Below are positions 3,096 to 18,075 of a stretch of 18,075 bases of DNA, one piece after another. The notes beneath the pieces are model-generated. The model ran no database searches. It saw only the letters and a list, made by a program, of their open reading frames with translations, and was not told the origin of the DNA. The translations under genes were made by a program, and so were the position numbers. Source of the DNA: JAGLHV01 sp023143305 [NCBI: Clostridia bacterium] (GTDB lineage Bacteria > CBDUZB01 > JAGLHV01); NCBI GenBank assembly GCA_030637025.1, contig DAOVVV010000042.1, positions 1 through 18,075 on the forward strand, given 5' to 3'. Position 1 is the stretch's first letter, and every line of letters starts with the position of its first letter.

Positions 3096-3191
3096 AGATA
3101 ATAGGCAGGAATTGTTAGAAGTACTCTTTTTATGAATATTAACGGTGTCCTTAAATTTTTTAGTATTCATCCTAATCTACTTATCGCTTTA

Positions 3192-3745: not shown

Positions 3746-3771
3746 AAAATTCCCTTTTATTAAAGGATCTT

Positions 3772-6105
3772 ATGGCTAATTATTTTACCCACTATTTATC
3801 AAATTCTGCATGGTTAATCACCTCTGAAGGATGGCATCCTAAACAACAAAATATTATTGAAACCCAACTCTCTCTCGGTAATGGATATATCGGCAGCAGA
3901 GGAATTCTGGAGGAAATTCCACGTAATTGTTTCCCCGGTACTTTTTTTAGCAACATTTACGATAAAGCAGGGGCACAAGTAACTGAATTGGTCAATGCCC
4001 CCAATCCCATAGATTTCAGAGTAATCAGCAAAGGAGAAAAACTCGATGTTACGGCAATGGATGTTCTTGAACATAAACGAATTCTGGATATGCATAAGGG
4101 TTTTCTAATCAGAAAAACAATTTATAAAAACAGCAAGAAAAAAAGATTCAAATATCAATCAATGCGTTTTTTTAGTATGTTCGATACACATATTGCTGCA
4201 ATGCAAGTTTGTATTACCCCCATTGATGATTCAGCTCATTTTACTATCGAAAGTGCAGTAAATTCTTCTATTACCAATAAAGGAGTCATTACCGAAGGAA
4301 ACAAAAAACATGTGGACATCATAGAATTCAATAAATATGATAATGTTAACTATCTGTGTTTTAAGACATTAGACCAAAATATCTTACTTGCTTACGGCAC
4401 CCAATTAAAAATAGAACAAAATAATAAAGTTTCCGTTGTTTCTACCCGCTCCTTTGATTTAACCGTAAAAAAAGAGGAGACTGTTGTTATTACTAAATTC
4501 TTTACTTTCTATAATTCACTGGAAATCAACCCCCGGCAAATCCGAAACAAAACAATAAAAAACATCAAAAAAATTACCAAAAAAGGTTTTAATCAACTCT
4601 TTACCGCCCATTGCAAGGTATGGACTAAAAAATGGAAAAAAGCTAATATTGAAATAACGGGGGATCCTAAAGCGGAAAAGGCGTTAAGGTTTAATATTTA
4701 TCATCTACTTATTTCTACCGGCACGCAAGATATTGATACCAGCATTAAAGCAAAAGCACTTAGTGGTGAAGGCTATCGTGGACATATTTTCTGGGATACT
4801 GAAATATTTATCCTGCCCTTTTTTATTTATACCAATCCTCTTATTGCTAAAAATCTATTATTATACCGTTATCGCAGATTAAATATGGCCAGGGAAAACG
4901 CCCAACAAAAAGGATTTAAAGGAGCTATGTTCCCCTGGGAATCAGCTGATACCGGAAAAGATGTAACCCCCCAATGGTATAAAGACGTCGAGGGTAAAAT
5001 TAAAAAAGTAAGCACTATGCAATACGAACATCATATTTCGGCTGATATTTCCTATGGAATTTACCATTATTTCCAGGCTACTAATGATTTCGATTTTATG
5101 TTAAATTATGGTTTAGAAATCCTTCTGGAAACAGCTCGTTTTTGGGCCAGCAGGGTAGAATACAATAAACGAACTAAAAAATATGAAATAAACCATGTTA
5201 TCGGTCCGGACGAATTTCACATTGATGTCAACAATAATACCTACACTAATTTAATGGCAAAATGGAATTTAGAAATTGCCAAAAAAACATATTTAGCGTT
5301 AAAAAAAGAATTCCCCGGCTCAATAAAAAGACTCACCAAAAAAATAAATTTAAAGTTAAAAGATCTGGAAAATTGGGGAAAAATAGCAGTTAACATATTT
5401 GTACCTTTTTCGAAAAAAACAAATATCCTTGAAGAATTTGACGGTTATTTTAAACTAAAAAAATTCCCTTTACCTGAATTAGACAGCAATTTCCTGCCCC
5501 TTCTCCCAAAAAATATTCACATTTTAGATAAAACCCAATTTGTTAAACAAGCTGATGTTGTTATGCTCTTATATCTATTACCCTCTTCCTTTGATTATAA
5601 TTTAAAGAAAAAAAACTATCTCTTTTACGAGAAAAGGACACTGCATAAATCATCACTTAGTGTTTCGATGCATTCTCTGATGGGAGTAGAAGTAGGTGAA
5701 AAAATTAAAGCCTACCGTTACTTTCTCAATTCTGTCTACGCCGACCGTAAAAACATTTACGGTAATACTATTGACGGAATTCATGCCGCTTCTTTAGGTG
5801 GAACATGGCAAACAGCTATTAACGGTTTTGCCGGGGTAAAGATTGATAAAGGGTGTCTTTCTTTTCAACCAAAATTGCCTGCCTGCTGGGAAAAAATTAA
5901 ATTTTTGTTACAGTGGAAAGGATATGAAATATCCGTAAACATAAACAAAGAAAAAATTCGTCTCACCCTTTTTTCTAAAAACAAAAAAGATACTTTACCG
6001 ATAAAAGTCTACGGAGCAAATCAAAAGCTGCAGGCAAATAAAAGCACCGTTTTTCTTAGAAAAACGAAACAAAAAATATCTTTGGATACCAAAGGATTTT
6101 ATTAA
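3772..6105 (+). CDS. Glycoside hydrolase family 65 disaccharide phosphorylase
   Basis: A 777-aa GH65 enzyme. Family members cleave alpha-glucosides such as maltose, trehalose, kojibiose or nigerose with phosphate, giving beta-glucose 1-phosphate and a released acceptor, in the cytoplasm. Order of parts: N-terminal beta-sandwich (about 10-270; WHPKQQNIIETQLSLGNGYIG), linker helices, (alpha/alpha)6 barrel (about 300-690), and a small C-terminal beta sheet. Visible active-site marks are GHIFWDTE (W341-D342), the general acid Glu481 in IGPDEFH, K592-Q593 in FVKQADV, and the phosphate-site region DGIHAASLGGTWQ (668-680). The length fits the family (750-800 aa) and no key residue is missing. The start is supported by AAAGGA just upstream. 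The GT4 gene follows after 16 bp, surely co-transcribed. Specificity cannot be read from the sequence; a phosphorylase running in reverse as a synthase is possible. Confidence 0.9.
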   Translation: MANYFTHYLSNSAWLITSEGWHPKQQNIIETQLSLGNGYIGSRGILEEIPRNCFPGTFFSNIYDKAGAQVTELVNAPNPIDFRVISKGEKLDVTAMDVLEHKRILDMHKGFLIRKTIYKNSKKKRFKYQSMRFFSMFDTHIAAMQVCITPIDDSAHFTIESAVNSSITNKGVITEGNKKHVDIIEFNKYDNVNYLCFKTLDQNILLAYGTQLKIEQNNKVSVVSTRSFDLTVKKEETVVITKFFTFYNSLEINPRQIRNKTIKNIKKITKKGFNQLFTAHCKVWTKKWKKANIEITGDPKAEKALRFNIYHLLISTGTQDIDTSIKAKALSGEGYRGHIFWDTEIFILPFFIYTNPLIAKNLLLYRYRRLNMARENAQQKGFKGAMFPWESADTGKDVTPQWYKDVEGKIKKVSTMQYEHHISADISYGIYHYFQATNDFDFMLNYGLEILLETARFWASRVEYNKRTKKYEINHVIGPDEFHIDVNNNTYTNLMAKWNLEIAKKTYLALKKEFPGSIKRLTKKINLKLKDLENWGKIAVNIFVPFSKKTNILEEFDGYFKLKKFPLPELDSNFLPLLPKNIHILDKTQFVKQADVVMLLYLLPSSFDYNLKKKNYLFYEKRTLHKSSLSVSMHSLMGVEVGEKIKAYRYFLNSVYADRKNIYGNTIDGIHAASLGGTWQTAINGFAGVKIDKGCLSFQPKLPACWEKIKFLLQWKGYEISVNINKEKIRLTLFSKNKKDTLPIKVYGANQKLQANKSTVFLRKTKQKISLDTKGFY

Positions 6106-6121
6106 GAAAGGAAACCAAATT

Positions 6122-7312
6122 ATGTCCAAAAAAAAATTAAACATTGCTCAAATTCACTGGGGTTTTATTCCTATTATTGGCGGGGTGGAAACCCATCTTT
6201 CTATTTTAATGCCTGAATTAGTAAAAAGAGGACACAATGTAAGTTTATTAACCGGCTCAGCAGAGCAGGAAAAAGGACGCTATAAATATCATGGAGTAGA
6301 GATACACCGGTCTCCGCTCTTTGACCTTAACTGGCTTTATCAAAGAGGCCTGGACGGGTTGGAAGAAGAAATTAATCAACTTTATAATTCTTTCTTTGCC
6401 GAAGCTAAACCGGATATTGTACACACACACAATATGCATTATTTTAGTAAAATCCATATTACTCTTTTAGAAAAACTTTGTAAAAAAAGAAATATTCCGC
6501 TTATTCTCACTGCTCATAATGTCTGGGATGATATCCTCTTTTTAAAACTTACCCGGGAAATAAACTGGTCTCATATTATTGCCGTAAGTCATTATATTGA
6601 AAAAGAACTCTTTGGTATCGGTTGTGACGATAAAAAAACAACCGTAATCCATCATGGTATAGATATAGAAACCTTCCATCCACAAACTAAACTCTCTGAT
6701 GTTTACAAAAAACATCCCCTTTTAAAAGGGAAAAAAATTGTTTTTCATCCGGCAAGAATGGGCATGGCTAAAGGTTGTGATGTAAGTATTAAAGCAATAA
6801 ATTTAGTCAAAAATCAATTTCCCGATGTATTATTAGTTTTAGCCGGAACAAAAAATATCATTGACTGGGGGGAAAATCAACAAAAAGAAATTGCTTATTT
6901 TATCGATTTGGTAAAAACATTCAAATTAGAAAAAAATGTATACATTAACGCTTTTAGTCTTAAGGAAATGCCGGAACTCTACAATGTTGCACAAGTTTGT
7001 ATTTATCCCTCTTCTTGCTCAGAGCCATTCGGACTTACTATGTTAGAAACCCTGGCTTCAGAAAAACCCCTGATCGTAACCAATAGCGGCGGTATGCCTG
7101 AAATCGTAAAAGACGGTATTTGCGGATACGTTATACCTGTAAAAGATTTTGAAACTTTAGCCGGAAGAATTAGTATGTTGCTGGCAAATAATGACTTACG
7201 GGAAAGACTGGGAAGATGCGGCAGGCAAACAGTAAAAAATAATTATACCAAAGAAATTATGACTAATCGTCATTTGGATATCTACTGTCAGGTACTTTCT
7301 GAAAATGCTTAG
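6122..7312 (+). CDS. GT4-family glycosyltransferase
   Basis: A 396-aa GT-B fold retaining glycosyltransferase of family GT4, cytoplasmic or loosely membrane-bound. The N-terminal Rossmann half starts NIAQIHWGFIPIIGGVETH, with the glycine-rich loop (GGVETH) and PDIVHTHN typical of the acceptor side. The C-terminal half binds the nucleotide sugar: FHPARMGMAKG supplies the Arg and Lys that contact the phosphates, and the E-x7-E signature is present as E301 and E309 in SEPFGLTMLETLA, followed by TNSGGMPEIV. A GAAAGGA ribosome site precedes the ATG. It sits 16 bp after the GH65 gene, so the two may act in one pathway, for example making and breaking a glucosylated compatible solute or storage disaccharide; this is inference. 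Donor and acceptor are unknown. Confidence 0.88.
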   Translation: MSKKKLNIAQIHWGFIPIIGGVETHLSILMPELVKRGHNVSLLTGSAEQEKGRYKYHGVEIHRSPLFDLNWLYQRGLDGLEEEINQLYNSFFAEAKPDIVHTHNMHYFSKIHITLLEKLCKKRNIPLILTAHNVWDDILFLKLTREINWSHIIAVSHYIEKELFGIGCDDKKTTVIHHGIDIETFHPQTKLSDVYKKHPLLKGKKIVFHPARMGMAKGCDVSIKAINLVKNQFPDVLLVLAGTKNIIDWGENQQKEIAYFIDLVKTFKLEKNVYINAFSLKEMPELYNVAQVCIYPSSCSEPFGLTMLETLASEKPLIVTNSGGMPEIVKDGICGYVIPVKDFETLAGRISMLLANNDLRERLGRCGRQTVKNNYTKEIMTNRHLDIYCQVLSENA

Positions 7313-7325
7313 AGTTTTATTTACC

Positions 7326-7364
7326 GCTGATAGAGACAAGCCTTTCTTTGCTTCATTTATCAGC
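7326..7364. terminator. Weak hairpin between convergent genes
   Basis: GCTGATA (7326-7332) pairs with TATCAGC (7358-7364), with an inner AAGC/GCTT pair. It lies between the convergent GT4 and nadE genes and overlaps the nadE stop codon. No clear U-tract, so a terminator role is only suggested. Confidence 0.25.
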
Positions 7365-9036
7365 CTTTATAACTATTAGTAATCGGAAATTTTCTATCTT
7401 TACTCAGAACTTTAGCAGTAATTTTTATTCCCGGGGAAGATTGTCTACGCTTATATTCACTTCTATCTATCATCCGGATAACCTTTCTTACTGTAATAGC
7501 ACGAATTTTATTAGCAGCTATTTCTTTAGAGTTTTTATCTTCTTCCTCATATCCTTTTATTATTTTATCTAAAATAGAATACGGCGGGAGTACATCCTGA
7601 TCTTTTTGATTAATTTTTAATTCTGCCGAAGGGGCCCGGCTAAGAATACTCTCAGAAATTAAAAGCTTTTCCCCTTTTTTATTTACAAACCGGGAAAGCT
7701 CATAAACAAGCATTTTAGGGATATCCTTTATTACCGCAAAGCCCCCGGCCATATCTCCGTATAAAGTACAATATCCTACCGAACTCTCACTCTTATTTCC
7801 GGTACTAAGAACCATCCACTTAAATTTATTAGAAAAAGCCATTAGAATATTTGCTCTTATCCTTGCTTGTAAATTTTCTTCGGTTACATTTTCTTTTAAT
7901 CCTCTAAATTCCTTTTCCAGCACCCTTAAATAAACTTTCCATATCTTATCTATCGGAATTACCAGCAATTTAATTCCCAGATTTTTGGCTAAAATCCCGG
8001 CATCAGCTTGTGTTTCCGGTGATGAAAAACAAGAAGGCATAGAAATCCCAATAATATTTTCTTTACCTATGGCATCCCGGGCAATTGCTGCGGTTAAAGC
8101 AGAATCTACTCCTCCGCTTAACCCGATAACTGCCTTCTGAAAGCCATTTTTTCTTATGTAATCATGAGTTCCTAAAACCAGGGCCTCATAAATTTCACCT
8201 ATTTTATTCAATTTTTCGATTTTTCTCTTTGGTAAAACCGGTTTCTCGCTACTTTTCAAAGTATTTAATTTAATACTCTTTTTTAATTCAACGTTACTTT
8301 TTGACCTTTTTATTGCTAAATCAGCAATAATCAAATCCTCCTTAAATCGTTTAGCCGTTGCAATTTTTTCTCCGTTTGGATTAAAAACCCCACTACCCCC
8401 GTCAAACACAAGTTCGTCTTGTCCACCTACCTGATTGTTATAGCAAAAATAAGTTTTTGCTTTTTTTATCCATGGTACTAACTTCTTTTCTTTCAGCTTT
8501 ACATTTCCAATATAATAGGGAGACGCTGATATATTTATAATCAGTTGAACCTTTTTATTTACTTGCTCTTTTGCTGTCTTTCCCTGCTCCCGAAATTCTT
8601 CTCCGATATTAATCCCAAAAACAACCTTATTTAGAGAAAATAAAGAAAACTTTTTCCCCGGATTAAAATACTTTTTTTCATCAAATGTTCCAGAACTAAA
8701 CAAGTTTGTCTTATGATAAACTGCTTTTACCCTGCCGTTATTAATTATAGCAGCTGCATTATATAAATTCCCTTTTTTGTCTTTATCAGCAAAGCCCACA
8801 ATCACCACTATACGGAAACTATCCTTTCGCAGTAAATTTAATGCTTTTAAATTATCTTTTACGAACTCTTTCTTTAATAATAAGTCTTCGGGTGGATATC
8901 CACAGACGGCTAATTCGGGAAAGGTTATTATATCTGCTTTGAATTTTTGTGCTTTCCTGACAAACTGTACAATTTTATTTATGTTCCCCTTTAAGTCTCC
9001 CACAACAGGATTAATCTGTGCTAAAGCTATTCTCAC
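7360..9036 (-). CDS. nadE: NAD+ synthetase, glutamine-type, with altered glutaminase site
   Basis: A 558-aa two-domain NAD+ synthetase, converting nicotinate adenine dinucleotide to NAD+ with ATP, the last step of NAD synthesis. Residues 1-245 are the nitrilase-like glutaminase domain: Glu41 (ITFPELAVCGYPPED) and Lys109 (VYHKTNL) of the Glu-Lys-Cys triad are present, but the cysteine is not. Where relatives read NICED, this protein reads NIGEE, with Gly145 encoded by GGA. NQVGGQDELVFDGGS is well kept. Residues 280-558 form the synthetase domain: the ATP-pyrophosphatase loop GLSGGVDSALTAA, STGNKSE, GYCTLYGDMAGGFAVIKD and AELKINQKDQD are intact. It probably uses free ammonia. The start is GTG, with GGAG 8 nt upstream; an ATG alternative is not near. 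A stable hairpin separates it from the upstream synthase gene. Confidence 0.92.
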   Translation of the reverse strand: MRIALAQINPVVGDLKGNINKIVQFVRKAQKFKADIITFPELAVCGYPPEDLLLKKEFVKDNLKALNLLRKDSFRIVVIVGFADKDKKGNLYNAAAIINNGRVKAVYHKTNLFSSGTFDEKKYFNPGKKFSLFSLNKVVFGINIGEEFREQGKTAKEQVNKKVQLIINISASPYYIGNVKLKEKKLVPWIKKAKTYFCYNNQVGGQDELVFDGGSGVFNPNGEKIATAKRFKEDLIIADLAIKRSKSNVELKKSIKLNTLKSSEKPVLPKRKIEKLNKIGEIYEALVLGTHDYIRKNGFQKAVIGLSGGVDSALTAAIARDAIGKENIIGISMPSCFSSPETQADAGILAKNLGIKLLVIPIDKIWKVYLRVLEKEFRGLKENVTEENLQARIRANILMAFSNKFKWMVLSTGNKSESSVGYCTLYGDMAGGFAVIKDIPKMLVYELSRFVNKKGEKLLISESILSRAPSAELKINQKDQDVLPPYSILDKIIKGYEEEDKNSKEIAANKIRAITVRKVIRMIDRSEYKRRQSSPGIKITAKVLSKDRKFPITNSYKG

Positions 9037-9055
9037 TTTTTTTCTCCACTTTTAA

Positions 9056-9090
9056 ATATAGGGCTGCTAAGTTTTTCAGCAGCCCTATAT
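9056..9090. terminator. 13-bp perfect stem-loop between synthase gene and nadE
   Basis: ATATAGGGCTGCT (9056-9068) pairs with AGCAGCCCTATAT (9078-9090) around a 9-nt loop. On the minus strand it follows the homocitrate-synthase-type gene by about 70 nt and precedes nadE by about 20 nt. The stretch after it (TTTAAAA) is only a weak U-tract, so it may stop transcription, protect the 3' end, or modulate nadE. Confidence 0.6.
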
Positions 9091-9157
9091 AATATAATCC
9101 AATGAGTCTTAGGGTTTTTCAGTTACACTAATAAAAATTTAAAATACCTATTCTTTT

Positions 9158-10399
9158 TTACATAGGTGTTACAGTTAAAATTTTCCTTGCCTGCTTAGGA
9201 TAAGAGGCAATAAACTTTAACTCGTCGCTGGTTAACGGTTTTTGGGTATGGACATTAGAATAACGAACCAAATCCAATATTTCCGTTGCTTCTTTATCAT
9301 CTTTAAACTTAATTTCCATTTTTCCATAAACATTCCTAAACCCTTTTATTCCCCCATATTCTCCGGTAGTAATTTGTCTGCCTGTTTCAATTAGCTCTGC
9401 TTCTCCCCGACCCAATTCCTCAAAATGATAAAGTTCATAATTATCCCTGTCTTTTAAAGCTCCGTCGGCATGAATTCCCGATTCATGGGAAAAGGCATTA
9501 GCCCCCACCCCAGGCTGATTAATGGGAAGAGGCACACCAAAAGCATAAGCCGCATATTTAGCAATTCTCCACGCTTTTTTTAAATTTATGCGTTCATCCA
9601 GAAAATATTTTTTTCTAAACCCACTCGATTTTTTTATAGCTAAAATAACCGAAACTAAATCAGCATTACCCGCTCGTTCTCCCAGACCATTAATCGTCGT
9701 ATTAATATAGGCATCCATTCCCGCATCAATAACTCCCTTTGCCCCGGCTACGGAAGTAGCTACTACCATTCCTAAATCATTATGACAATGCAACTCTATA
9801 GGCAATTGGATTTCTTTGGCCAAAGTTTTTGTTCTTTCGTAGATAGTAAACGGATCATCAAATCCTAATGTGTCACAATAGCGAATACGATCTGCACCGG
9901 CTTTTTTTGCGGCAAAAGCAAATTCTATTAAATATTTCATTCTGCTTCGGGAAGCATCCTCCGCATTTACTCCAATACTTTCCGCTCCTAATTTACGGGC
10001 CTGATGAACAGCTTTAACCATCTCCCTAATCACTCCCTGGTGATCCAATTTTCCCCTAAATTTATGCTTTATCATTTGTTCTGAAGTGGAGATGGATAGA
10101 TTCAAATGTTTTAGTTTCGGAACCCTTTTAAAAGCAATTTTAACGTCATTAGCCATTGCCCGTATCCAGCCACTTAACCTGATGGAATCCAGCTTTTCTA
10201 CTTTAGCTAATTCCAAATTAGCATTTAAATAATTTGATTCGTGAAAAGTAACAGGAAAACCAAATTCCGATTGAAAAACTCCCATATCATTAAGATACAT
10301 ATTAATCATTGTTTTCTGCAATTTAGCTAATCCCAACCTGGCCGTTTGCACCCCATCACGATTAGTAACATCAATAATGTAAATCTTGTTTTTCGCCAT
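9158..10399 (-). CDS. Homocitrate synthase / Re-citrate synthase-type enzyme (DRE-TIM family)
   Basis: A 413-aa acyl-CoA condensing enzyme of the isopropylmalate/homocitrate synthase group; members join acetyl-CoA to a 2-oxo acid in a metal-dependent aldol reaction. The barrel starts IIDVTNRDGVQTAR, giving Asp10 (metal) and Arg14-Asp15 (catalysis). HCHNDLG (His204, His206) completes the metal site, NGLGERAGNADL (237-248) is the family signature 2, and SHESGIHADG (304-313) is the active-site lid helix. There is no C-terminal LeuA regulatory domain, so leucine control is unlikely. The DVTNRDGVQT opening differs from the usual DTTLRDGEQ form; I associate this branch with NifV-like proteins and with Re-type citrate synthases of anaerobes, so citrate formation from oxaloacetate is a real alternative. 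Ribosome site AAAGGAG. Probably co-transcribed with the RDD gene 58 bp upstream. Confidence 0.8.
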   Translation of the reverse strand: MAKNKIYIIDVTNRDGVQTARLGLAKLQKTMINMYLNDMGVFQSEFGFPVTFHESNYLNANLELAKVEKLDSIRLSGWIRAMANDVKIAFKRVPKLKHLNLSISTSEQMIKHKFRGKLDHQGVIREMVKAVHQARKLGAESIGVNAEDASRSRMKYLIEFAFAAKKAGADRIRYCDTLGFDDPFTIYERTKTLAKEIQLPIELHCHNDLGMVVATSVAGAKGVIDAGMDAYINTTINGLGERAGNADLVSVILAIKKSSGFRKKYFLDERINLKKAWRIAKYAAYAFGVPLPINQPGVGANAFSHESGIHADGALKDRDNYELYHFEELGRGEAELIETGRQITTGEYGGIKGFRNVYGKMEIKFKDDKEATEILDLVRYSNVHTQKPLTSDELKFIASYPKQARKILTVTPM

Positions 10400-10457
10400 A
10401 ATTATTTCTCCTTTTTGTAATAAAAAACTTTATTTTCAAATCCTGTTAAACCCTATA

Positions 10458-10970
10458 TTAACATTTAATTACCACTGTTTTTGCCATTTTATCATGCCAT
10501 CCCTGGTGTTTCTTATCCCAGATAATCCATAAAAAACCCATAAATAAAGCCATAGAGGAAAGGATATATCCGAAATATCTCCACATTGCCTTTCCTGCGG
10601 TTAAGGGTTTTCCATCTATAGTTATGATTTTTATTTTCATTATTTTTTTCCCGATAGTTTGTCCGTTCCATAATACCCAAAACCCAATGAAATAAAAAGC
10701 CATTGCTAACTGCGCAAGCATATCAGGAATACTCTCTGCTCCAAAAACTACAAGAATAGCAAAACTAAAGCTTATTAGCGCAAAATCAATAATATACGCT
10801 ACCAGTCTTCTTCCAAAACCAACATAGGTATACAAAGAAGTTATAACTTCCGGCTCCGGGGTTTGCGGCTCTTTTTCCATAGATTCTTCATCCTTTTTTA
10901 AAATAGCCCCACAGACATTACACTTTAACTTATTTTCTCCGTTTTCATACCCACATTCCGGACATTTCAT
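10458..10970 (-). CDS. Zinc-ribbon RDD-family membrane protein
   Basis: A 170-aa inner-membrane protein. Residues 3-20 are a zinc ribbon with two CxxC pairs (C3/C6 and C17/C20), followed by an acidic, proline-rich linker (25-42). The RDD domain covers 48-168: GFGRRLVAYIIDF carries the first conserved Arg and Asp, and HQGWHDKMAKTVVI carries the last Asp. Three membrane segments are visible (about 56-77, 84-101, 132-150), the usual count for RDD. The family's function is unsettled; ion transport has been shown for a few members. The start follows a purine-rich GGGGGAAAGGAA site. It is first in a likely operon with the synthase gene downstream, driven by the consensus promoter upstream. Confidence 0.85.
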   Translation of the reverse strand: MKCPECGYENGENKLKCNVCGAILKKDEESMEKEPQTPEPEVITSLYTYVGFGRRLVAYIIDFALISFSFAILVVFGAESIPDMLAQLAMAFYFIGFWVLWNGQTIGKKIMKIKIITIDGKPLTAGKAMWRYFGYILSSMALFMGFLWIIWDKKHQGWHDKMAKTVVIKC

Positions 10971-11063
10971 TTCCTTTCCCCCTACTTTTATAAAATTTTA
11001 TCTAAAACAAATTTTTTCCATCCATAGTTTTTATTCGCCCAAAATACTCCCCAAGTTTGTATC

Positions 11064-11092
11064 ATTATAAACAGAAATATGTCTACTGTCAA
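11064..11092 (-). promoter_or_regulatory. Perfect-consensus sigma70 promoter for the RDD operon
   Basis: On the minus strand: TTGACA (11092-11087), exactly 17 nt, TATAAT (11069-11064). Both boxes match consensus fully. It lies 94 nt upstream of the RDD start and only about 40 bp from the island border, so insertion of the island left it intact. Confidence 0.85.
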
Positions 11093-11133
11093 GCTTTGTT
11101 TGGCAGAGGGTAATAATATCCGGTGGTTTGATA

Positions 11134-11206
11134 AAAAAGGTCTTTTCTTATTTTTTTGGTTTTAAAAAATAGCCGTAGCTTTTAGGGACGAATATGTCTT
11201 TGAATT
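11134..11206. repeat. Island-flanking direct repeat, copy 1 (displaced 3' end of the dNTPase gene)
   Basis: 73 bp identical to 16185-16257 except one base (11172 G, 16223 A), exactly 5051 bp apart. On the minus strand it still encodes the last residues of the HD dNTPase, ending YGYFLKPKK and stop (stop at 11148-11150), without the rest of the gene. The one difference is synonymous (a Gly codon). Its last two bases complete the TAA stop of the 1062-aa island gene. This is what an attachment-site repeat in a gene's 3' end looks like. Confidence 0.9.
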
Positions 11207-14200
11207 ATTCTGTTTGGTCCGGATTGTTTTTTTTCCATAATTTTCTTAAAAAATCAATCCCTCGTTTACCATAAATATTGCATATTTCATTCGCTTCTTT
11301 TTTTATCTTTTTATCCTTTGATTTATAAAGAAATTCTACAATTGAATAAATATCTTCTTTTCGAAACTCAGGAGTATAACCTTCTAACATCTTCAAAAAT
11401 ATTTTGCCAATATATTTAACACCTTCACCTTTATCCTTTCGTTCCTCAAGATATTCAACGAAAAATGCCGCAGGGAAATAAATGTAGCTGCAAGAAGCAG
11501 TCTTCATCAACCAATTAAAATTCTTAGAATCTATTTTAGATAAAAACACTGTTAGTTTAGATAAATTAGATAATATTTCTTTGTCTTCTTTACTCAATTC
11601 TTCTACTTTTTTATCTTTATATTTATCATAAACCCATTGACACCATTCGACAATTCTATTTTTTATTTTCACCCCCCCATCATCCTCAATCACATTGTTT
11701 CTTTGCATCCAGAAAAAACCGATAATTTCTTTTATTTGTGCTGTCTTCCATTTTTCTAACAATTTACCAAAAAGGCTATTTTCTTTAAAATTTTCATGAC
11801 CTCGCAAATACCCCAGGCTGATATGTTGTACCAACCGTTCTTTTATATCTTCATCTTTATCTTTGAAAAAATGTTTTATTGCTAACTCATAATGTCCTTT
11901 CATTAAAAAATACACATTTTTATTTAATTCTCCATTAAATAAATATCCTTCCATAAATGCTTCCCATAAAGATATTTTATTTCTGTATAGAGTTAAGAAA
12001 TTTTCTATTTTATTTTCAACCCATTTTTTGTCCAGATAATGCAAGTTAGCACGGTATTGACCAACCAAAGTATATGCTTCAACAATCTCATCCTTTAACA
12101 CTTTTTCATATTTCCTTTTTATATCAGTAGGCCATTTTGGTTCTTTTTTATTTCCTTTTCTATTTTCTACACGCGCAATCCTTAAAGCTAAATAAATTAA
12201 GGCCGTAATATTCTTCCCAAAAGGAGAATTTAATGCCTGAATTACGGCACCTCTTTCTTGTTTTTCTTGTTTTTTTTCTTTATCTAAAAGAGTAAACAGA
12301 ATCTCTTTAGCAATTGTAAAGTATTTTTCTGAAAAGGCCCAAGAGTCACTTCGTGTTCCTTCCTGGATAAGTTCTCCAACCATCTCTGTTATCCAGGAAT
12401 ATTCAGCATCACGAGCATCCTCACCTTTTATTTTAAACTTACCTTCCCAAAACCCGGGTTTACCAATATATTCATTGATGAATTTAAAAAGTTTCTTCCA
12501 ATCTATATATTTATTTTCTCTCCATGCATCTTTTATCCCCCCAAGGAGGTAATAAACATAATAATACCCAACATTTAGAAATGGAGAAAGATTTTCGATA
12601 AATTTACCTGGTTCTTCCTGCACTGTAGACTTAAAGGTAGTAGCTAATCCCTCTACCGTAGGAGGATTAAAAAGGTCTCCCCCTTTAAAGCTCATCATAA
12701 ACTTTACTAATTCTTCGTTTGGCATTTTTACAATCTGTTCTTTAGTTAAGGGTGATTCCCCTGGTCCCCATTTTGTTTGTATTTGGTGTGTTTCTTCATT
12801 TACTTCTGTTCCGGTTATTTTTTTCATCTTTTCATAGAATTCAACAAAATAAGAATCAGATTTTAAAGCTAAATACCATCTCTGTTTCCAAAGAGTAATT
12901 TCTTTCTTCTCGTTTTCTTTTGCAATGTAACGTTTAGGACCTTTTTCAATAGTAGATTTTATTTTTCCTTTTTGAGGTTGTGAGAAGGTTGAAACATTAT
13001 TTTTGAACAAGTTATATAACTCTGGTTTACAACCATATGTATCTAAAAGTTCTTCATCAAACCATTGCCAAAACAAACCATTGTATTTTGACCACTCTTT
13101 TCCAATGATAAAAATAACCATTTTTCTAAAAAACAAGTACTTATCTTCCCAAAATTCCTTTAATACTTTTCTTGTTTCATCTTTGTTTACCCTGGCTTTT
13201 GCTAAAAGAATATTTTTTAAAACATAAGTAAGCATCTCAAGTGCGTCTTTTGTAGGATGTAGAGATTCCTCATAAAACGATCTATAAGTTCCATTATCAT
13301 AAAGGTTCCGATAAAGATTTTGTATTTTCCGGTTTAATAATTTCTTATCTATCTTGTTAAAAATACCCTTTCTCGATATAATTTCCTCAGTTTTTTTTAC
13401 AAATTCTTGTTTATTCCTGCAATTCTCTATCTTTATTGACTTTATTAACTTACTTTCACTTTGTTTTTTTAATAATATTTCTTCCCATACATCCTGTGGT
13501 TTCCTGTCTGTAATATCCTGAATTTCAATCTCGTAGTTATTCGCCTCATTCTCTTTTAATATAAGCAAACGTGAAATATTTGACAAATCAATTTTACTTT
13601 CTTTTTGTTTGATTATTTGTCTAATCTTTTGTGATAAATCCTTAATAACTTTAACTCCACATTTTTCACCAATTTTTTGAGCGTTACCTTTAAATGCTTT
13701 TAAAAGCCAATAAGAATCAATGTCTATTTTGTACTCTTTTTCTTTTCTCAATAGGTTTGTTTCTCTTTTTTCAGAAGATTTCATAGATTTAATAGCAGTT
13801 ATACTTTTAACAATTTCTTCTGCTTTTTCTATATTCTTAGACTTATCACTATTTAAGAATTTAGGCAGTAATTTTGTAGCTATTTCAGACCCAGCGAGTG
13901 TGCTATCAAACTTTGAATCAAGCCATATAGGAATTAATTTAATTATCTCCATTGGAATTTTATCATTGGGTATGTTCAATAAAATTTTCACAAAAAACCA
14001 CCAAGTACGATAATTATCTAAACTTTTATTGTGTTTAATATGATAATCTGTAACATTTTTTATAACCTCTAATAATTTATCAATATATTGTTCATTCCCG
14101 AGAGTAGTTACTTGTTGTGAAACTTTTTCTAAATATTGCAGAACATTCCACTCAGGAATTTTATAAGATCCTTTTTCTTCTGCTTCTATAAAACCCGGCG

Positions 14201-14396
14201 CTTTTTCCGGAGAAAAATAATCTCTTTCTTTTAAAGAATTAAACCACTGAATATTCTTGAGGTTCTTGAATAGATACGTTTCATATCCTTCTTCAGAATT
14301 AATGATATTAAATAAAATCTCTTCCTCTGATTTATTATAAGCCATAGAAATTATTTTATCTATTTTAAATACCTTCGGATAAAAATCAGTAACCAT
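11205..14396 (-). CDS. Large helical-repeat protein, presumed sensor partner of the SIR2 NADase
   Basis: Unrecognised; 1063 codons including the stop-adjacent end. It looks mostly alpha-helical, with many charged amphipathic helices and aromatic spacing like that of the long C-terminal repeat regions of STAND-type and other large defence proteins. Suggestive segments: EGYETYLFKNLKNIQWFNSL (37-56) followed by FSPEKAPG, a repeat opener I associate with such proteins; GPGESPLTKEQIVKMPNEEL near 545; and a C-terminal NIYGKRGIDFLRKLW. No Walker A motif, nuclease motif, signal peptide or membrane segment is visible, so it is not itself a NACHT or AAA ATPase. It starts inside the SIR2 gene (11-bp overlap); the SIR2 codons for Arg-Arg-Lys provide an AGGAGG ribosome site 4 nt before the ATG. 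That coupling implies a fixed ratio and probably a complex. A role in recognising invaders is inference. Confidence 0.8.
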   Translation of the reverse strand: MVTDFYPKVFKIDKIISMAYNKSEEEILFNIINSEEGYETYLFKNLKNIQWFNSLKERDYFSPEKAPGFIEAEEKGSYKIPEWNVLQYLEKVSQQVTTLGNEQYIDKLLEVIKNVTDYHIKHNKSLDNYRTWWFFVKILLNIPNDKIPMEIIKLIPIWLDSKFDSTLAGSEIATKLLPKFLNSDKSKNIEKAEEIVKSITAIKSMKSSEKRETNLLRKEKEYKIDIDSYWLLKAFKGNAQKIGEKCGVKVIKDLSQKIRQIIKQKESKIDLSNISRLLILKENEANNYEIEIQDITDRKPQDVWEEILLKKQSESKLIKSIKIENCRNKQEFVKKTEEIISRKGIFNKIDKKLLNRKIQNLYRNLYDNGTYRSFYEESLHPTKDALEMLTYVLKNILLAKARVNKDETRKVLKEFWEDKYLFFRKMVIFIIGKEWSKYNGLFWQWFDEELLDTYGCKPELYNLFKNNVSTFSQPQKGKIKSTIEKGPKRYIAKENEKKEITLWKQRWYLALKSDSYFVEFYEKMKKITGTEVNEETHQIQTKWGPGESPLTKEQIVKMPNEELVKFMMSFKGGDLFNPPTVEGLATTFKSTVQEEPGKFIENLSPFLNVGYYYVYYLLGGIKDAWRENKYIDWKKLFKFINEYIGKPGFWEGKFKIKGEDARDAEYSWITEMVGELIQEGTRSDSWAFSEKYFTIAKEILFTLLDKEKKQEKQERGAVIQALNSPFGKNITALIYLALRIARVENRKGNKKEPKWPTDIKRKYEKVLKDEIVEAYTLVGQYRANLHYLDKKWVENKIENFLTLYRNKISLWEAFMEGYLFNGELNKNVYFLMKGHYELAIKHFFKDKDEDIKERLVQHISLGYLRGHENFKENSLFGKLLEKWKTAQIKEIIGFFWMQRNNVIEDDGGVKIKNRIVEWCQWVYDKYKDKKVEELSKEDKEILSNLSKLTVFLSKIDSKNFNWLMKTASCSYIYFPAAFFVEYLEERKDKGEGVKYIGKIFLKMLEGYTPEFRKEDIYSIVEFLYKSKDKKIKKEANEICNIYGKRGIDFLRKLWKKNNPDQTE

Positions 14397-15393
14397 ACTT
14401 CCTCCTACTCAATTGTTCAAACAATTTCTCCACAAATATGTGTTGGCCTTTTTTGTAAACTATTGGTAAAATATAAAACTCTTCATACTCATTGAAAAAT
14501 TGATCTTTTAAATACTCTTCTTTCGACTCTATTAGCAAAAAGTGTCTAATTTGATTAGGGCTATACTCTCCTCCCCCTTCAGAATAAAATGATTGATTTT
14601 TTTTATTGTCTGATTCAATTTCTTTTGCTACCGTGAACAAGTACTCTCTGACATATTTATCCTTAAAACTAAATCCTAAAAATATAATACTTTTCTTTTT
14701 AAAAAAATGTTCTAGACACGTTTCAACACATTTTACCCCGTCTGCTTGTTTACTTATGGTTGGATAATATAGATCATAGTGAGTTTTTCTTAAAATATAA
14801 ATTTTTTTTTCAATATTTCCGTGTAAATAATAAATGACATTTTCCTTTTCGTTTGAATAATCTTCAATTTCTGGAATATGTTTTTTTATAAAATCTTTTT
14901 TATCCTTGGCACCAAAATGGTTTGATAAATAATTAACAAATTCACCTGCAGCTTCTATAGATATATCAAAATTAGTTGTCAAGCAGGTTTTTACTGCTAA
15001 AATCATTTTTATTAAAGTTACTGTTGTTGTATTATTGTTTGGACTCATTCCCTTTCGTATTGTTTCAAAATATTTTTCTTTTTTGCCTTTCTTTGTTAAC
15101 TCTTGGAAAATCTTATCTGCCAACTCGGGCCATTGTTCAGTGTCTTCTAAATACTCTTTATTGCTAGTTCTAAATTCACTCCCACAACAATCAAATAATG
15201 CTTTTATTAAACCCTCCCAATCTACTATTCCCAAGGGTTTAGATGCACCTGCCCCTACAAATGCTACTGATTTATCTATGGCATAATTGTCAATTAATTT
15301 TTTTAAGTTCTCAATATTTTTTGGAATAGATTCAATATAATCATTTAAGGAAGGACGCGAACTTTCTGTTTCAAAATCTTTTCTTTGCTGCAT
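14386..15393 (-). CDS. SIR2-family protein, predicted NADase effector
   Basis: A 335-aa cytoplasmic protein of the SIR2-like (SIR2_2) group seen in anti-phage systems, where the domain hydrolyses NAD+ and halts the infected cell. Visible marks: NAD-binding FVGAGAS (45-51), TTNFD (139-143) with the Asn and Asp that contact ribose, catalytic His191 in YYLHGN, and FLGFSFKD (238-245). The four zinc-binding cysteines of true deacetylase sirtuins are absent, favouring NAD hydrolysis. About 40 residues precede the domain and there is no other fused domain, unlike one-chain DSR1/DSR2 proteins. I start it at the ATG at 15393, 5 nt after the HepT stop codon and behind GAGAGG. The frame continues to a GTG at 15468, but those 25 residues are an off-frame reading of the HepT tail. 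Overlaps the next gene by 11 bp. Confidence 0.88.
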   Translation of the reverse strand: MQQRKDFETESSRPSLNDYIESIPKNIENLKKLIDNYAIDKSVAFVGAGASKPLGIVDWEGLIKALFDCCGSEFRTSNKEYLEDTEQWPELADKIFQELTKKGKKEKYFETIRKGMSPNNNTTTVTLIKMILAVKTCLTTNFDISIEAAGEFVNYLSNHFGAKDKKDFIKKHIPEIEDYSNEKENVIYYLHGNIEKKIYILRKTHYDLYYPTISKQADGVKCVETCLEHFFKKKSIIFLGFSFKDKYVREYLFTVAKEIESDNKKNQSFYSEGGGEYSPNQIRHFLLIESKEEYLKDQFFNEYEEFYILPIVYKKGQHIFVEKLFEQLSRRKYGY

Positions 15394-15398
15394 TATTC

Positions 15399-15725
15399 TT
15401 ATAACCTCTCTAAAACATTTCTTATCTTTTTCTCTAACGGTGTTAGTTTTGTTTTTATTACATCCCACATTATTTCATAATCTATCCCAAAATATTCATG
15501 GATAATAACATTTCTAAAGTTAATCAGGGATTTCCATTCAACCTCCGGATATTTCACTTTTATCTTTTGTGGTAATTGTCTTGCTACTTCACCAATGACT
15601 TCAAAGTTCCTAATTACTGCATCTATGCTTTTCTCATTTTTTGAAAACTGTTCAAAAGAAAGATTTCTTGTGTATTTCTTAATTTTTCCAATACATTCAA
15701 GTATATCCTCTATAGATTGCTTCGC
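15399..15725 (-). pseudogene. hepT: HepT (DUF86) toxin gene, N-terminus lost
   Basis: The minus-strand frame from 15725 to the TAA at 15399-15401 encodes an almost complete HepT/DUF86 protein: QSIEDILECIGKIKKYT at its start, EVIGEVARQLP in the middle, then FRNVIIHEYFGIDYE with the R-x4-H-x-Y signature of HepT ribonuclease-type toxins, and a normal end IMWDVIKTKLTPLEKKI. Roughly the first ten residues are missing: the frame runs upstream into a TGA at 15726-15728 inside a palindromic repeat, and no ATG, GTG or TTG start with a ribosome site precedes the homologous part. The usual partner MntA (a nucleotidyltransferase antitoxin) is not in the window. Most likely a remnant broken by the repeat; a rare start codon cannot be excluded. 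It sits 5 nt from the SIR2 start and may still carry its transcript. Confidence 0.75.
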
Positions 15726-15799
15726 TCATGCTCGCAATGACAGACATCTTTTTTTGTCATTGCGAATCCGCCATTCCTTAGTGGCGGGTGAAGCAATCT
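15714..15799. repeat. 86-bp palindromic repeat, full copy
   Basis: Nested inverted repeats: outer arms AGATTGCTTC (15714-15723) and GAAGCAATCT (15790-15799), inner arms TCGCAATGACA (15732-15742) and TGTCATTGCGA (15755-15765), and a third small hairpin CCGCCA/TGGCGG (15768-15787). I recognise this ATTGCTTCG...CGCAATGAC type as a dispersed repeat seen in many genomes of uncultivated bacteria. One end interrupts the hepT frame; the other supplies the first bases after (and part of) the TAA stop of the GIY-YIG gene. Confidence 0.85.
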
Positions 15800-16086
15800 T
15801 ACAATCCTTCATATAAATCATCCCAACTTTTATTCCTATCATTGATTAAGTCGATTTTCTTCTGTCTTGAACCACCTTTAATCTGTTTTTCTCTTATAAT
15901 TGCATTTTCTATATCCTCAAAAATTTCATAGTATACTAATTTAACAATATTGTATCTTTTGGTAAAGCCATCAATCAACTTTGCCTTATGCTCATATGTT
16001 CTTTTTATTAAATTATTGGTAACCCCCGTATAAAGAACTGTATTGCCTTTGTTAGTCATTATATAAATATAATATTGTTTATTCAA
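15799..16086 (-). CDS. Small GIY-YIG nuclease-like protein
   Basis: A 95-aa single-domain GIY-YIG protein of the YhbQ/UPF0213-like group. The motif pair appears as YYIYIM (5-10) and VLYTG (17-21); Arg29 with His33 and Glu66 in IIREKQIKG fit the catalytic Arg, His and metal-binding Glu, followed by SRQKKIDLI. The size is usual for the group, whose members are poorly characterised DNA-processing proteins. The start is TTG at 16086, 9 nt after AAAGGGA; the first ATG (Met10) would cut into the GIY strand. The gene is sandwiched between two copies of the same palindromic repeat: the full one touches its stop codon and a half copy lies 17 bp upstream of its start. This arrangement resembles repeat-associated transposase (RAYT-like) units, so it may help move the repeats; that is inference. 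Confidence 0.85.
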   Translation of the reverse strand: MNKQYYIYIMTNKGNTVLYTGVTNNLIKRTYEHKAKLIDGFTKRYNIVKLVYYEIFEDIENAIIREKQIKGGSRQKKIDLINDRNKSWDDLYEGL

Positions 16087-16103
16087 AAAATTATTCCCTT
16101 TGG

Positions 16104-16132
16104 AGATTGCTTCGCTTCCGCTCGCAATGACG
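16104..16132. repeat. Half copy of the palindromic repeat
   Basis: AGATTGCTTCGC-TTC-CGCTCGCAATGAC matches the left half of the full copy at 15714-15742 in the same orientation, with differences limited to the middle three bases and the end. The short arms ATTGC/GCAAT still allow a small hairpin. It lies immediately before the ribosome site of the GIY-YIG gene. Confidence 0.8.
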
Positions 16133-16151
16133 AACCTTTTCAGTTTTATTT

Positions 16152-16157
16152 ATTATA
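16152..16157 (-). promoter_or_regulatory. Possible -10 box for the island genes
   Basis: A perfect TATAAT on the minus strand, about 66 nt upstream of the TTG start of the GIY-YIG gene and within the island end. No good -35 hexamer is at 16-18 nt. In AT-rich DNA this is weak evidence; it is the best candidate I see for transcription of the island genes from inside. Confidence 0.3.
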
Positions 16158-16184
16158 AAGATTATTTTGCTAATAATATGAGGG

Positions 16185-16257
16185 AAAAAGGTCTTTTCTT
16201 ATTTTTTTGGTTTTAAAAAATAACCGTAGCTTTTAGGGACGAATATGTCTTTGAATT
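16185..16257. repeat. Island-flanking direct repeat, copy 2 (in place at the dNTPase 3' end)
   Basis: Partner of 11134-11206, 72 of 73 bases identical. It covers the last 19 codons of the dNTPase gene plus 14 bp after the stop. Just outside both copies there is also a TAATAAT stretch (11111-11119 and 16171-16179), which may mean slightly longer, gapped homology. Confidence 0.9.
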
Positions 16258-17395
16258 GGTTATTAAAAAAATCATCGGTCATTCCGGCGATAAAATCAAC
16301 TATTATGCGCCTTTTATCCGTGTTTCTGCGATAATTGTCATCAATATCTTTCAAATAATGGCGATAAAAAGGAGACTCTTTGTTTTCACTTTTTAAATCG
16401 TGCAGAAATTTTTCAAATAATTGTCTAAACATATTCTCAATTTTAGGTGTTTCTTTTTTAATCTGCTCATTGGAATAAATATTGACCTTATTAAACTTTT
16501 TTAAATCCCTTAACGCCCTGAATATATCATGGCTAAAGGTTAAATAATCTTTATCGTAACTATTTTTAATTAAATCCAAAACCAGGGTATTTATTATTTT
16601 ATCATTGGTGTTTCCGATAATTCGTCTAATACTTTCGGGAATATCCTTTCTTTTTATTACCCTCAAGGTAATGGCATCCTCTATGTCTCTTCCAATATAA
16701 GCAATTACATCGGAAATTCTAACTACGCATCCCTCCAGTGTCATCGGAAAAATTTTTTTGCTGTATTTTTCATTAAGAAAACAATTAAAATATTCTTCTT
16801 CAAATTTTTTCCAGTCCTTTGCATAATTTGGCCTATATTCCTTACTTAACATCTCACCGTTATGCGTTAAAATACCATCTAAGACCTGCAAGGATAAATT
16901 CAATCCTTTTCCGTGTTGTTCCAACTCCATTAAAAATTTTACGCTCTGGGCATTATGCACAAAACAACCTATTTTTTCTTTCTCGCATATCTCATTTAAA
17001 ACTTTTTCCCCATCATGGCCGTAAGGAACATGCCCTAAATCATGACCCAGAGAAATAGCTTCAATTAAATCTTCGTTCAACTGTAACGACCTTCCTATTA
17101 CCCTCCCTATTTTAGAAACAAATTGTACATGCAAGACCCGGTGAGTAATGTGGTCATTTTCAAACAGATAAAAAACTTGTGTTTTATCAATATATCTGGA
17201 ATAAGCACGAGAATGAATAATTTTGTCTGTATCATGAAAAAAATTCGGACGAATATTCATTCGGTCAGAGATTTTTTCTTTTCCCGGAAACTTTCTTATT
17301 CCCTTTTTGCTCTTACAGGCATATTTAGCTAAAATTCTTCCTTCCCGATTTGCGTTATTTAGTACTATTTCTGAAAAAATTTTTTTGCTCCTCAT
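16199..17395 (-). CDS. dgt: HD-domain dNTP triphosphohydrolase (dGTPase-like)
   Basis: A 398-aa HD-superfamily enzyme of the dGTPase (Dgt) type, releasing triphosphate from deoxynucleoside triphosphates in the cytoplasm and so controlling the dNTP pool; some Dgt proteins also limit phages. The opening RPNFFHDTDKIIHSRAYSRY and KTQVFYL match the family start after a 45-residue N-terminal stretch. The metal ligands are His85 (ITHRVLHV), His118-Asp119 (GHDLGHVPYGHDGE) and Asp229 (VRISDVIAYIGRDIED); His122 and His127 are the helper histidines. The C-terminal helices are family-typical in length. The start is ATG with AAGGAG at 6 nt. Its 3' end is the integration point of the downstream island and is duplicated 5 kb away. 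Substrate preference cannot be told from the sequence. Confidence 0.9.
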   Translation of the reverse strand: MRSKKIFSEIVLNNANREGRILAKYACKSKKGIRKFPGKEKISDRMNIRPNFFHDTDKIIHSRAYSRYIDKTQVFYLFENDHITHRVLHVQFVSKIGRVIGRSLQLNEDLIEAISLGHDLGHVPYGHDGEKVLNEICEKEKIGCFVHNAQSVKFLMELEQHGKGLNLSLQVLDGILTHNGEMLSKEYRPNYAKDWKKFEEEYFNCFLNEKYSKKIFPMTLEGCVVRISDVIAYIGRDIEDAITLRVIKRKDIPESIRRIIGNTNDKIINTLVLDLIKNSYDKDYLTFSHDIFRALRDLKKFNKVNIYSNEQIKKETPKIENMFRQLFEKFLHDLKSENKESPFYRHYLKDIDDNYRRNTDKRRIIVDFIAGMTDDFFNNQFKDIFVPKSYGYFLKPKK

Positions 17396-17655
17396 TCTTT
17401 ACTCCTTAACAATTATAAAGTAATGTCAAAAATATTCAGTCTCTCCTCGGCGAAGCCTGGGTAATTCATTTATATCTGTAATAATTGCAATGCTTTTTGT
17501 TAAAAATACTTGTCCCCCCTTTTTCAACGGGGAAAAACTATTTTTTCAAACTCCCAACCCCCAAATTCCCGCCTTATCCGCCAGTCTGTAAGGCAGAGAG
17601 AACCCTTCTTATCCACCTAAAGCGGAGCGGGCAGGCTACTAAATTTAAACCAAAA

Positions 17656-17823
17656 AAAATAAGGGTGAAATATGTTTTGAACGATATAGCAAATTTTAGC
17701 AAAAATTAGCGTTAAAAAAATGAGCTTGTCTGAGCAAAGCGAGTTGCTCATTTTTAGCTTGTTTTTGCGTGCCCAAAGGGTAAAATTATGCGTCTAGAGA
17801 GAAACATATTTGACCTTTATTTT
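17656..17823. repeat. 168-bp imperfect palindrome with 22-bp terminal inverted repeats
   Basis: The ends, 17656-17677 and 17802-17823, are inverted copies matching at 20 of 22 positions (core AAATATGTTT). The centre carries AAAAATGAGC (17716-17725) against GCTCATTTTT (17746-17755). It could be a MITE-like element or a structured RNA. Confidence 0.6.
17731..17755 (+). terminator. Terminator-like hairpin inside the palindrome
   Basis: TGAGCAA (17731-17737) pairs with TTGCTCA (17744-17750) around AGCGAG, followed by TTTTT. On the minus strand an overlapping fold uses GAGC at 17722-17725 and ends in seven T. No gene directly upstream on the plus strand needs it, so it may belong to the repeat. 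Confidence 0.4.
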
Positions 17824-18075
17824 CCTTGTTCCAAATCCTGACTCATAAATATCCTGTCACAAATAGTTATAAATCCCCCTAACCCTTTTTTTCAAAGAGG
17901 GAAATTATTTGTCATCTTTTTTCATGCTTTATTTGACATTATCAATTATACTGACTTCTCCCCATAGCAAGCGTTCTCAACTCAATACCATGTACTTTAT
18001 GATTTTTTATTTTAAACTTCAAAATAATTTATTAGACAGGAATGTATATCTTTTTTAAAAAAATCCCTGACTTCC

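Follow-up and report, generated by a model that had tools for sequence, protein, structure and literature searches.

A probable defence island behind a duplicated dgt tail in a clostridial genus, and a GIY-YIG nuclease gene associated with CGTC-like REP palindromes

The DNA analysed here is a stretch of 18,075 nucleotides (contig DAOVVV010000042.1 of assembly GCA_030637025.1, positions 1 to 18,075 of the forward strand; hereafter the window) from the Clostridia bacterium JAGLHV01 sp023143305, in which a block of accessory genes lies behind the 3' end of a gene for a dgt-like deoxynucleoside triphosphate (dNTP) triphosphohydrolase. The order in the window is dgt, a 73-nt repeat (R), a segment termed x40, a GIY-YIG endonuclease gene, a HepT remnant, a separate SIR2 gene, a Dsr1-like part, a second copy of R, and a gene for an RDD membrane protein (Table 1). 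Self-comparison of the window returned R as a direct repeat with 1 mismatch at a spacing of 5051, leaving 4978 bp between the two copies; the next direct-repeat families are 32–34 nt long, with 72–78% identity. The copy at dgt (R1) consists of 59 nt of coding sequence (18 sense codons, the stop codon and 2 nt) followed by 14 nt, and the other copy (R2) is a detached dgt 3' end. The original prediction, made by a model from the sequence letters, had described the repeat, its mismatch and spacing, and the assignment of the true and the detached end as they were found here; its count of 19 codons plus stop is amended, 19 being reached only when the stop codon is included. It had also placed the island border at the stop codon of the last cargo gene, and R2 does overlap the stop codon (11207–11205) of the open reading frame (ORF) 11205–14396 by 2 nt. 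The dgt-like protein scored over the cut-off of NCBIfam TIGR01353 and matched PADLOC dGTPase at E 2.7e-60. An Rfam search of the window at gathering scores gave no match, and no tRNA or tmRNA was found in the window.

Table 1. Features of the window between the RDD gene and dgt; G002 is a second species of the genus, and REP denotes a repetitive extragenic palindrome.
Feature	Position	Strand	Basis
dgt-like dNTP triphosphohydrolase gene (HD domain), intact, insertion target	16199..17395	-	Pfam HD and HD_assoc over cut-off
Repeat copy R1: last 18 codons and stop of dgt, plus 14 bp	16185..16257	-	Repeat search; six-junction alignment
x40, about 40 bp after the dgt end in the window	16144..16184	-	Six-junction alignment; also twice in congener G002; absent from empty site
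CGTC-like REP 5' of the GIY-YIG gene, tag away from gene	16104..16132	-	Palindrome search; definition from PMC3733652
GIY-YIG endonuclease gene, 95 aa, TTG start	15799..16086	-	PF01541 E 9e-16
REP pair facing each other, starting at the GIY-YIG stop codon; predicted to form one long hairpin	15714..15799	-	Palindrome search, folding
HepT (HEPN) gene remnant	15441..15725	-	PF01934 E 1.2e-27; longer HepT behind nucleotidyltransferase gene in G002
SIR2-domain gene (360 aa), putative separate N-terminal partner of Dsr1-like system	14386..15468	-	PF13289 E 7.9e-16; PADLOC ThsA E 2.4e-16, LmuA, weak Dsr1
Dsr1-like C-terminal part as its own gene (1063 aa)	11205..14396	-	PADLOC Dsr1 E 5.9e-158
Repeat copy R2: detached dgt 3' end	11134..11206	-	Repeat search; six-junction alignment
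Promoter-like sequence (TTGACA, 18 bp, TATAAT) 5' of the RDD gene	11064..11093	-	Read directly; similar one in G002
RDD membrane protein gene, bordering the variable slot on the other side	10458..10970	-	PF06271 E 8.7e-23

The locus was compared with three fragmentary metagenome-assembled genomes (MAGs) of the genus, G001, G002 and G003. In the nearest of these, G001 (68% of sampled 31-mers common with the window), contig C382 (JAGLHV010000007.1) joins window positions 10996–11206 directly to 16258 onward with a single copy of R. This is the empty site for which the original prediction had proposed a search, and together with the intact dgt gene of the window it upholds the predicted insertion at the dgt 3' end with the reading frame kept. 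A second contig of the same bin, C212, carries the filled right junction and reaches window position 11630, with 11 mismatches to the window over 2673 bp and none within 10996–11206. The empty and occupied contigs differ at 2 positions in the 211 bp that they share: at 11172 the empty contig has the base of copy R1, and 11130 lies outside the repeat. At face value the G001 population holds both states; a separate empty haplotype is backed by the single nucleotide polymorphism (SNP) at 11130, and a short-read joining error across R is unlikely.

In G002 the interval holds other contents. Its contigs C37 (JAUVLC010000120.1), with a dgt protein 89% identical to that of the window, and C151 overlap by 141 bp at 100%, and their joined order is dgt, R, x40, a nucleotidyltransferase gene (cut by the end of C37), HepT, a fused Dsr1-like gene (1361 aa), R, x40, GIY-YIG and RDD. 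The GIY-YIG gene lies outside the repeats in G002 and inside them in the window, and different cargo flanked by copies of the dgt end, for which the original prediction had also suggested looking, is present; with G001, three states of the dgt–RDD slot were observed (empty, window cargo and G002 cargo). The repeat of G002 is about 118 bp long, continuing through the roughly 40 bp past the dgt end, compared with 73 bp in the window. Alignment of six junctions gave four types (dgt-R-RDD, dgt-R-x40, Dsr1-R-RDD and Dsr1-R-x40), that is, every combination of a left partner (dgt or Dsr1) with a right partner (x40 or the RDD spacer). Copies of R differ at 1 of 73 positions within the window and at 2 of 73 within G002 (read from the alignment); between species the difference is about 7 of 73, and either copy of G002 is 90.4% identical to window R2. 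Since the repeat recurs in contigs of the relatives, it is not a chance feature.

Identity between the window and G002 is uneven along the locus. Within the island it is 94.4% for the HepT remnant region, 91.8% for GIY-YIG with R and 81.5% for the Dsr1 part; outside, it is 87.6% for dgt, 84.8% for 9130–10415 (HMGL gene), 82.4% for 3599–7304 and 73.4% for RDD. A broken HepT gene that is closer between species than intact housekeeping genes points to recent exchange, and the unevenness as a whole argues that parts were exchanged after the species split.

The cargo was examined by profile searches. The best stretch of the Dsr1-like part on the PADLOC Dsr1 profile covers 545–1225 of 1227; the protein is 63% identical to the fused G002 protein and has no Pfam match. 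The strict NCBIfam model (NF041818, Dsr1 equivalog) has no match in the window and gives the G002 protein 69.6 bits against a cut-off of 1400, and by this model neither is a canonical Dsr1. Dsr1-like relatives were found in 8 of 386 genomes, G001 and G002 among them; phage records and viral contigs yielded none, and dgt relatives were likewise absent from viral contigs. Of six other Dsr1-like loci retrieved, one is cut and five have a protein with nearly the same end point, so the C-terminus of ORF 11205–14396 looks natural, and in G299, G245 and G372 a smaller gene with a SIR2-like GAG motif was seen by eye 5' of the large gene. By these matches the cargo is a putative split Dsr1-like operon, whose SIR2 domain and large C-terminal part are encoded by separate genes. 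The SIR2 parts of window 14386–15468 and of G002 (locus L045, 563–4645) showed no match to each other at the DNA level; the SIR2 difference between two species at one locus is perhaps a domain swap. The HepT remnant is cut at its 5' end at a REP and at its 3' end where the SIR2 gene begins. By analogy with the families concerned, the island cargo is probably anti-phage, and the SIR2/Dsr1-like operon may act by abortive infection through NAD loss.

On balance, we take the locus to be a recombination-exchanged defence island with a long target duplication, in a slot that is empty in some strains. The dgt–RDD interval would serve as a slot, either empty or filled with exchangeable, probably anti-phage cargo; the island would arrive with a copy of the dgt 3' end, leaving dgt intact on one side and its tail repeated on the other, and loss, regain and re-assortment would follow from homologous recombination (presumably RecA-type), either from one copy to the other or with further alleles. 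Of the mechanisms considered, such exchange by way of the duplicated dgt tail is the most probable; the arrangement may have begun with a site-specific event. The differing repeat length, taken with the within-species likeness of the copies, agrees less well with a fixed att core than with homologous recombination or long target duplication. Several points weigh against this reading. One of the just two differences between the empty and occupied contigs in 211 bp is the R1/R2 base itself, the genus sample consists of the three fragmentary MAGs, and in one of them, G003, dgt had no match. The constant junctions (R directly before x40, the cargo stop directly before R) would also suit a site-specific element with its enzyme encoded on DNA outside that examined. 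Finally, no long border direct repeat was found at the six other Dsr1-like loci (one cut by a contig end), so the arrangement is not general for Dsr1-like systems; at one of them, L073, a 24-bp repeat brackets 12.7 kb containing the Dsr1-like gene.

A single ancestral insertion, inherited vertically, with gene conversion keeping the dgt tails alike and the empty G001 strain produced by deletion between the repeats, would account for the same slot and like junctions in two species, and such a deletion is a simple event. This history is doubtful, as the HepT remnant and the GIY-YIG part are closer between the species than the flanking genes (73–88%), the GIY-YIG gene lies on different sides of R, and the SIR2 parts are joined by no DNA match.

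The original prediction had proposed site-specific integration with an integrase supplied in trans, and in this form the proposal did not hold up well: we consider it unlikely that a tyrosine recombinase acting in trans (a lost integrase or XerCD) joined a 73-bp attP to attB at the dgt 3' end. Such an element would place its target at a gene 3' end with the frame kept and would yield all four partner combinations of R, G002 then being a tandem array with R-x40 after Dsr1 as an attP-like junction, and in a Bacteroidales MAG (L014) a dgt gene is closely followed by a detached 3' end apparently from another dgt family. Against it, Pfam and PADLOC scans of the island proteins found no integrase or recombinase, as the original prediction had said of the element. 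PF00589 gave two matches in each of the three genus genomes, namely five full-length Xer-like proteins (298–317 aa) and one 176-aa protein in G002; when two of the Xer-like proteins were scanned against NCBIfam, one was XerD over the cut-off and the other was XerC/XerD-like, just under both cut-offs and over that of PRK00283. PF00239 (serine recombinase) matched in none of the three genus genomes, with 10 of 14 control genomes positive. The repeat length is not constant, and no core with clear inverted arms was seen by eye, no systematic search for one having been made. Misassembly as the source of the second copy or of the empty allele is very improbable; the original prediction had itself raised this objection for the second copy. 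Repeats of 73 bp can mislead short-read assemblers and a single SNP outside the repeat separates the empty from the occupied contig, but that SNP belongs to the empty contig within its 211-bp overlap with the occupied one, and the filled right junction is also present in G001 and in a second species, which establishes the second copy as real.

Among 16 loci with dgt relatives, a repeat of the dgt end was found only at L014 (Paludibacter MAG, 10640–11040), where the detached 3' end (NFIAGMTDDYAIMLY...) lies about 150 bp behind the intact dgt gene and, by eye, adjoins genes resembling those of type I restriction. A motif scan points to a different dgt family as the likely source of this tail, and the case is insufficient for a general rule. 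No report of dgt as an integration site was found in the open-licence literature.

The second subject of this analysis is the GIY-YIG gene inside the island and the palindromes on both sides of it. The window protein keeps Y8, Y19, R29, H33 and E66, which we take to have catalytic roles and each of which is present in 56 to 58 of 58 aligned sequences; no relatives of the protein were found in phage records. The window palindromes begin GTCATTGCGA and end AGCAATC, and the nearest tags point outward. In Di Nocera et al. 2013 (PMC3733652), CGTC REPs are defined by a tag CGTC, TGTC or CCTC, a stem of 8–9 bp starting A-T and a tail that is mostly CCA, and are described there as apparently without a dedicated transposase. 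The upstream window REP (tag 16129–16132, stem ATTGC...GCAAT) agrees with this written definition in its tag and A-T start; it departs from the rule of an 8–9-bp stem with a loop of 4–5 by folding as 5 + 2 bp with an inner bulge, and from the mostly-CCA tail by ending in CTCC. Because they share the tag and the A-T start but not the stem length or tail, the window copies are called CGTC-like. Flanks of relatives in the stem class termed CC, e.g., TGTC-ATTCCCGC-GAAA-GCGGGAAT-CCAG, fit the stem and loop rule, and many of them agree with the definition in full. The unit of REP, gene and REP, with its outward CGTC-like tags, would be a separately mobile kind of element, whose arrival in the island probably removed the HepT 5' end and the nucleotidyltransferase gene.

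For a survey, 290 genomes were searched for GIY-YIG genes, giving 57 places in 44 genomes at E 1e-18 or better, of which 2 were left out (short flanks) and 55 used. A shared repeat was scored between the two 300-bp flanks, and outward tags were scored as GTCAT(T/C)(C/G) on both sides within 200 bp. A first random control (shared flank repeats at 4 of 92 places, against 28 of 33 GIY-YIG places) mixed coding and spacer DNA and was replaced by neighbour genes and by ParE toxin genes, which are small and accessory too (4 of 49 with broken frames; locus L120 left out for a short flank; 20 extra places hand-picked from GIY-YIG-holding genomes before flanks were inspected). A repeat common to both flanks was found at 45 of 55 GIY-YIG places and 1 of 49 ParE places (Fisher P 2e-18), and outward tags on both sides at 32 of 55 and 0 of 49, respectively (Fisher P 4e-12). 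Among the 27 of 49 ParE places from genomes also holding such GIY-YIG genes there were none with outward tags on both sides, and among neighbour ORFs of at least 100 aa in the same loci there was one in 64. The nearest outward tag lay 34–56 bp 5' of the matched ORF in 26 of the 45 places having one, and 29–57 bp 3' of it in 32 of 47. The association of GIY-YIG genes with REPs is strong.

The palindromes were then sorted by stem (GC, CC or CT). The class was the same on both sides at 29 of 32 places classed on both, and it follows GIY-YIG phylogeny: on a tree of 58 sequences, weakly resolved (7 of 55 branches starred) and with near-copies that help label clustering, the stem label, known for 47 rows, requires 8 changes; shuffled labels averaged 21.4, and 0 of 200 shuffles came as low as 8. 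Two GIY-YIG genes of different clades in one genome, G023, carry their own clade's class (C62 GC, C71 CC), and within the genus G001:C100 is of class CC and the window of class GC. G008 fits in part, with C24 of class GC in the GC clade and C3 mixed (CT upstream, GC downstream) beside CT rows.

REPs were counted with the pattern GTCATTSYN{8,30}RSAATC, which matches 36, 64 and 14 times in G001, G002 and G003, respectively (reversed pattern: 0, 1 and 1). Uncorrected for kinship or genome size, the median count per genome is 85.5 in the 44 genomes with GIY-YIG and 6 in the 246 without (area under the curve (AUC) 0.90, P 1.6e-17), and by ParE presence the medians are 15.5 and 6 (AUC 0.66, P 3e-6). 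Fifteen of the 44 genomes with at least 50 matches have no GIY-YIG gene at the strict cut-off, and a weak GIY-YIG match was found in only 5 of the 20 REP-richest GIY-negative genomes; the flanks of six weak-match loci, looked at partially and by eye (some matches start or end inside the gene), had no REP. The idea that GIY-YIG is the sole keeper of CGTC-like REPs was ruled out by REP-rich genomes without it. Separately, G065, G021, G174 and G061 have 157–438 pattern matches and no GIY-YIG relative at E 1e-6.

Eleven within-genome pairs of GIY-YIG places were aligned. Five (G190, G056, G006, G109 and one of three from G027) lose similarity around the REPs, ending within about 105 bp 5' and 55 bp 3' of the gene; in the G057 pair it continues beyond that range through repeat arrays, and for the remaining five no alignment spanning the whole gene was obtained.

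Thirty-two plasmid records were returned by a protein search for GIY-YIG relatives, and the flanks of nine were read by eye. Outward GTCAT-type palindromes lie on both sides in Azospirillum lipoferum, Rhizobium sp. CIAT894, Shinella sp. and Aeromonas caviae; in Neisseria gonorrhoeae such palindromes are likewise present on each side, with the closest clear tags pointing inward. Clusters or other stems occupy both flanks in Planktothrix and Spirosoma, the form in Sinorhizobium meliloti bears the tag CCTC, and no clear REP was seen in the Photobacterium flanks. PMC3733652 lists A. lipoferum and S. meliloti as hosts of CGTC REPs and equates the CGTC-1 repeats of Neisseria with dRS3 repeats. The unit of A. 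lipoferum 4B (protein WP_014249537.1) carries a REP pair on either side and separates sufB from sufC, genes that are 55–129 bp apart without a unit in A. ramasamyi, A. oryzae, Azospirillum sp. B510 and A. thermophilum; the spacers vary in sequence, which blurs the exact unit ends and any target duplication. In Planktothrix agardhii plasmid p1 (L225) the GIY-YIG gene lies between an annotated MmeI-type restriction enzyme and DISARM drmA, and with these defence genes as neighbours it is a second case of a GIY-YIG gene inside defence genes.

Two further observations concern G002. At 600–1250 of contig C175 (L079) a GIY-YIG gene is bracketed by a 67-bp repeat of another kind (ATATTCCC...GGGGCAATGGT) in direct orientation, which shows that CGTC-like REPs do not flank every such gene. 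At 6660–6960 of contig C37 (L006), between dgt and the nucleotidyltransferase gene, an apparent transposase remnant accompanies a palindrome, GGTAGCCGCAGACTTTAGCCTGCG, possibly a REP of the GTAG type.

From these comparisons we hypothesize that the GIY-YIG enzyme moves REPs. At even confidence, small GIY-YIG endonucleases of this type are proposed to supply the dedicated enzyme that the CGTC REP super-family and similar repeats had appeared to lack: units of REP, gene and REP would be autonomous ('GIY REPtrons'), the abundant solo and paired REPs would be their miniature offspring, and the enzyme would recognize the stem of its own clade's class, cut or nick at the palindrome, and spread by copying in the course of repair, which differs from how HUH transposases work. 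The window unit would then have landed in the defence island and broken the HepT gene. Alternatively, and with some probability that we put below even, GIY-YIG genes may be passengers or homing genes for which REP-rich spacers are a safe place to settle, and would then not move REPs. REP families that persist in genomes without a close GIY-YIG gene, and the scarcity of weak matches and of REPs beside them in the REP-richest GIY-negative genomes, speak for passengers; the near absence of outward tags on both sides of ParE genes from the same genomes and of neighbour genes, the shared class on both sides, and its agreement with GIY-YIG phylogeny speak against them. No report tying GIY-YIG genes to CGTC-type REPs was found in the open-licence literature, among the matches listed.

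Beyond the island, about 520 bp at window 17406–17951 are missing from G001, with a short direct repeat (about CAATTATA) at both ends, and a repeat within this segment (about 17637–17874) has dozens of matches in G001–G003.

The island suggests that defence genes may change places without an evident recombinase of their own, by way of a copied gene tail only, and it adds a new example of a known route by which defence genes are moved. Minimal mobile elements of Neisseria are slots between conserved genes that hold alternative cargo and no mobility genes; the dgt–RDD slot resembles them in these respects and differs in the duplicated gene tail at its border. Genomic islands are known at the 3' ends of tRNA, guaA and dusA genes, and the present island shares with them the kept target frame, the direct repeats at both ends and the empty site, but it has no integrase, and the genus genomes hold only the Xer-like proteins and the 176-aa protein. 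Insertion with long target duplication reportedly goes back to Nobusato et al. 2000. As a way of moving gene blocks (PMC3031569), it resembles the present case in a block absent from a relative and in long target repeats of variable length without transposase or integrase; there the cargo is restriction-modification genes, here SIR2/Dsr1-like genes, GIY-YIG and a HepT remnant, and here the junctions are alike in two species. The system itself resembles Dsr1 (defence-associated sirtuin 1) in its C-terminal PADLOC profile match and in the fused form of G002, and differs in that the window version is split in two genes with an unlike SIR2 partner and that neither form reaches the NCBIfam equivalog cut-off.

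Palindromes starting GTCATT and ending AATC are present in many of the bacterial genomes examined, and for this very common class GIY-YIG is a candidate partner with the right position, phylogeny and distribution, testable in tractable species such as A. lipoferum. The window protein has the GIY-YIG domain and conserved residues of GIY-YIG homing endonucleases, and the A. lipoferum 4B unit can be set against four relatives without it, with varying spacers that blur its borders. In arrangement the units resemble REPtrons (RAYT transposase genes with GTAG REPs; PMC3733652), which share a small nuclease gene between REPs, many solo REPs and a REP class tied to the enzyme clade; the units described here differ in having a GIY-YIG nuclease in place of a RAYT HUH tyrosine transposase, and repeats that are CGTC-like.

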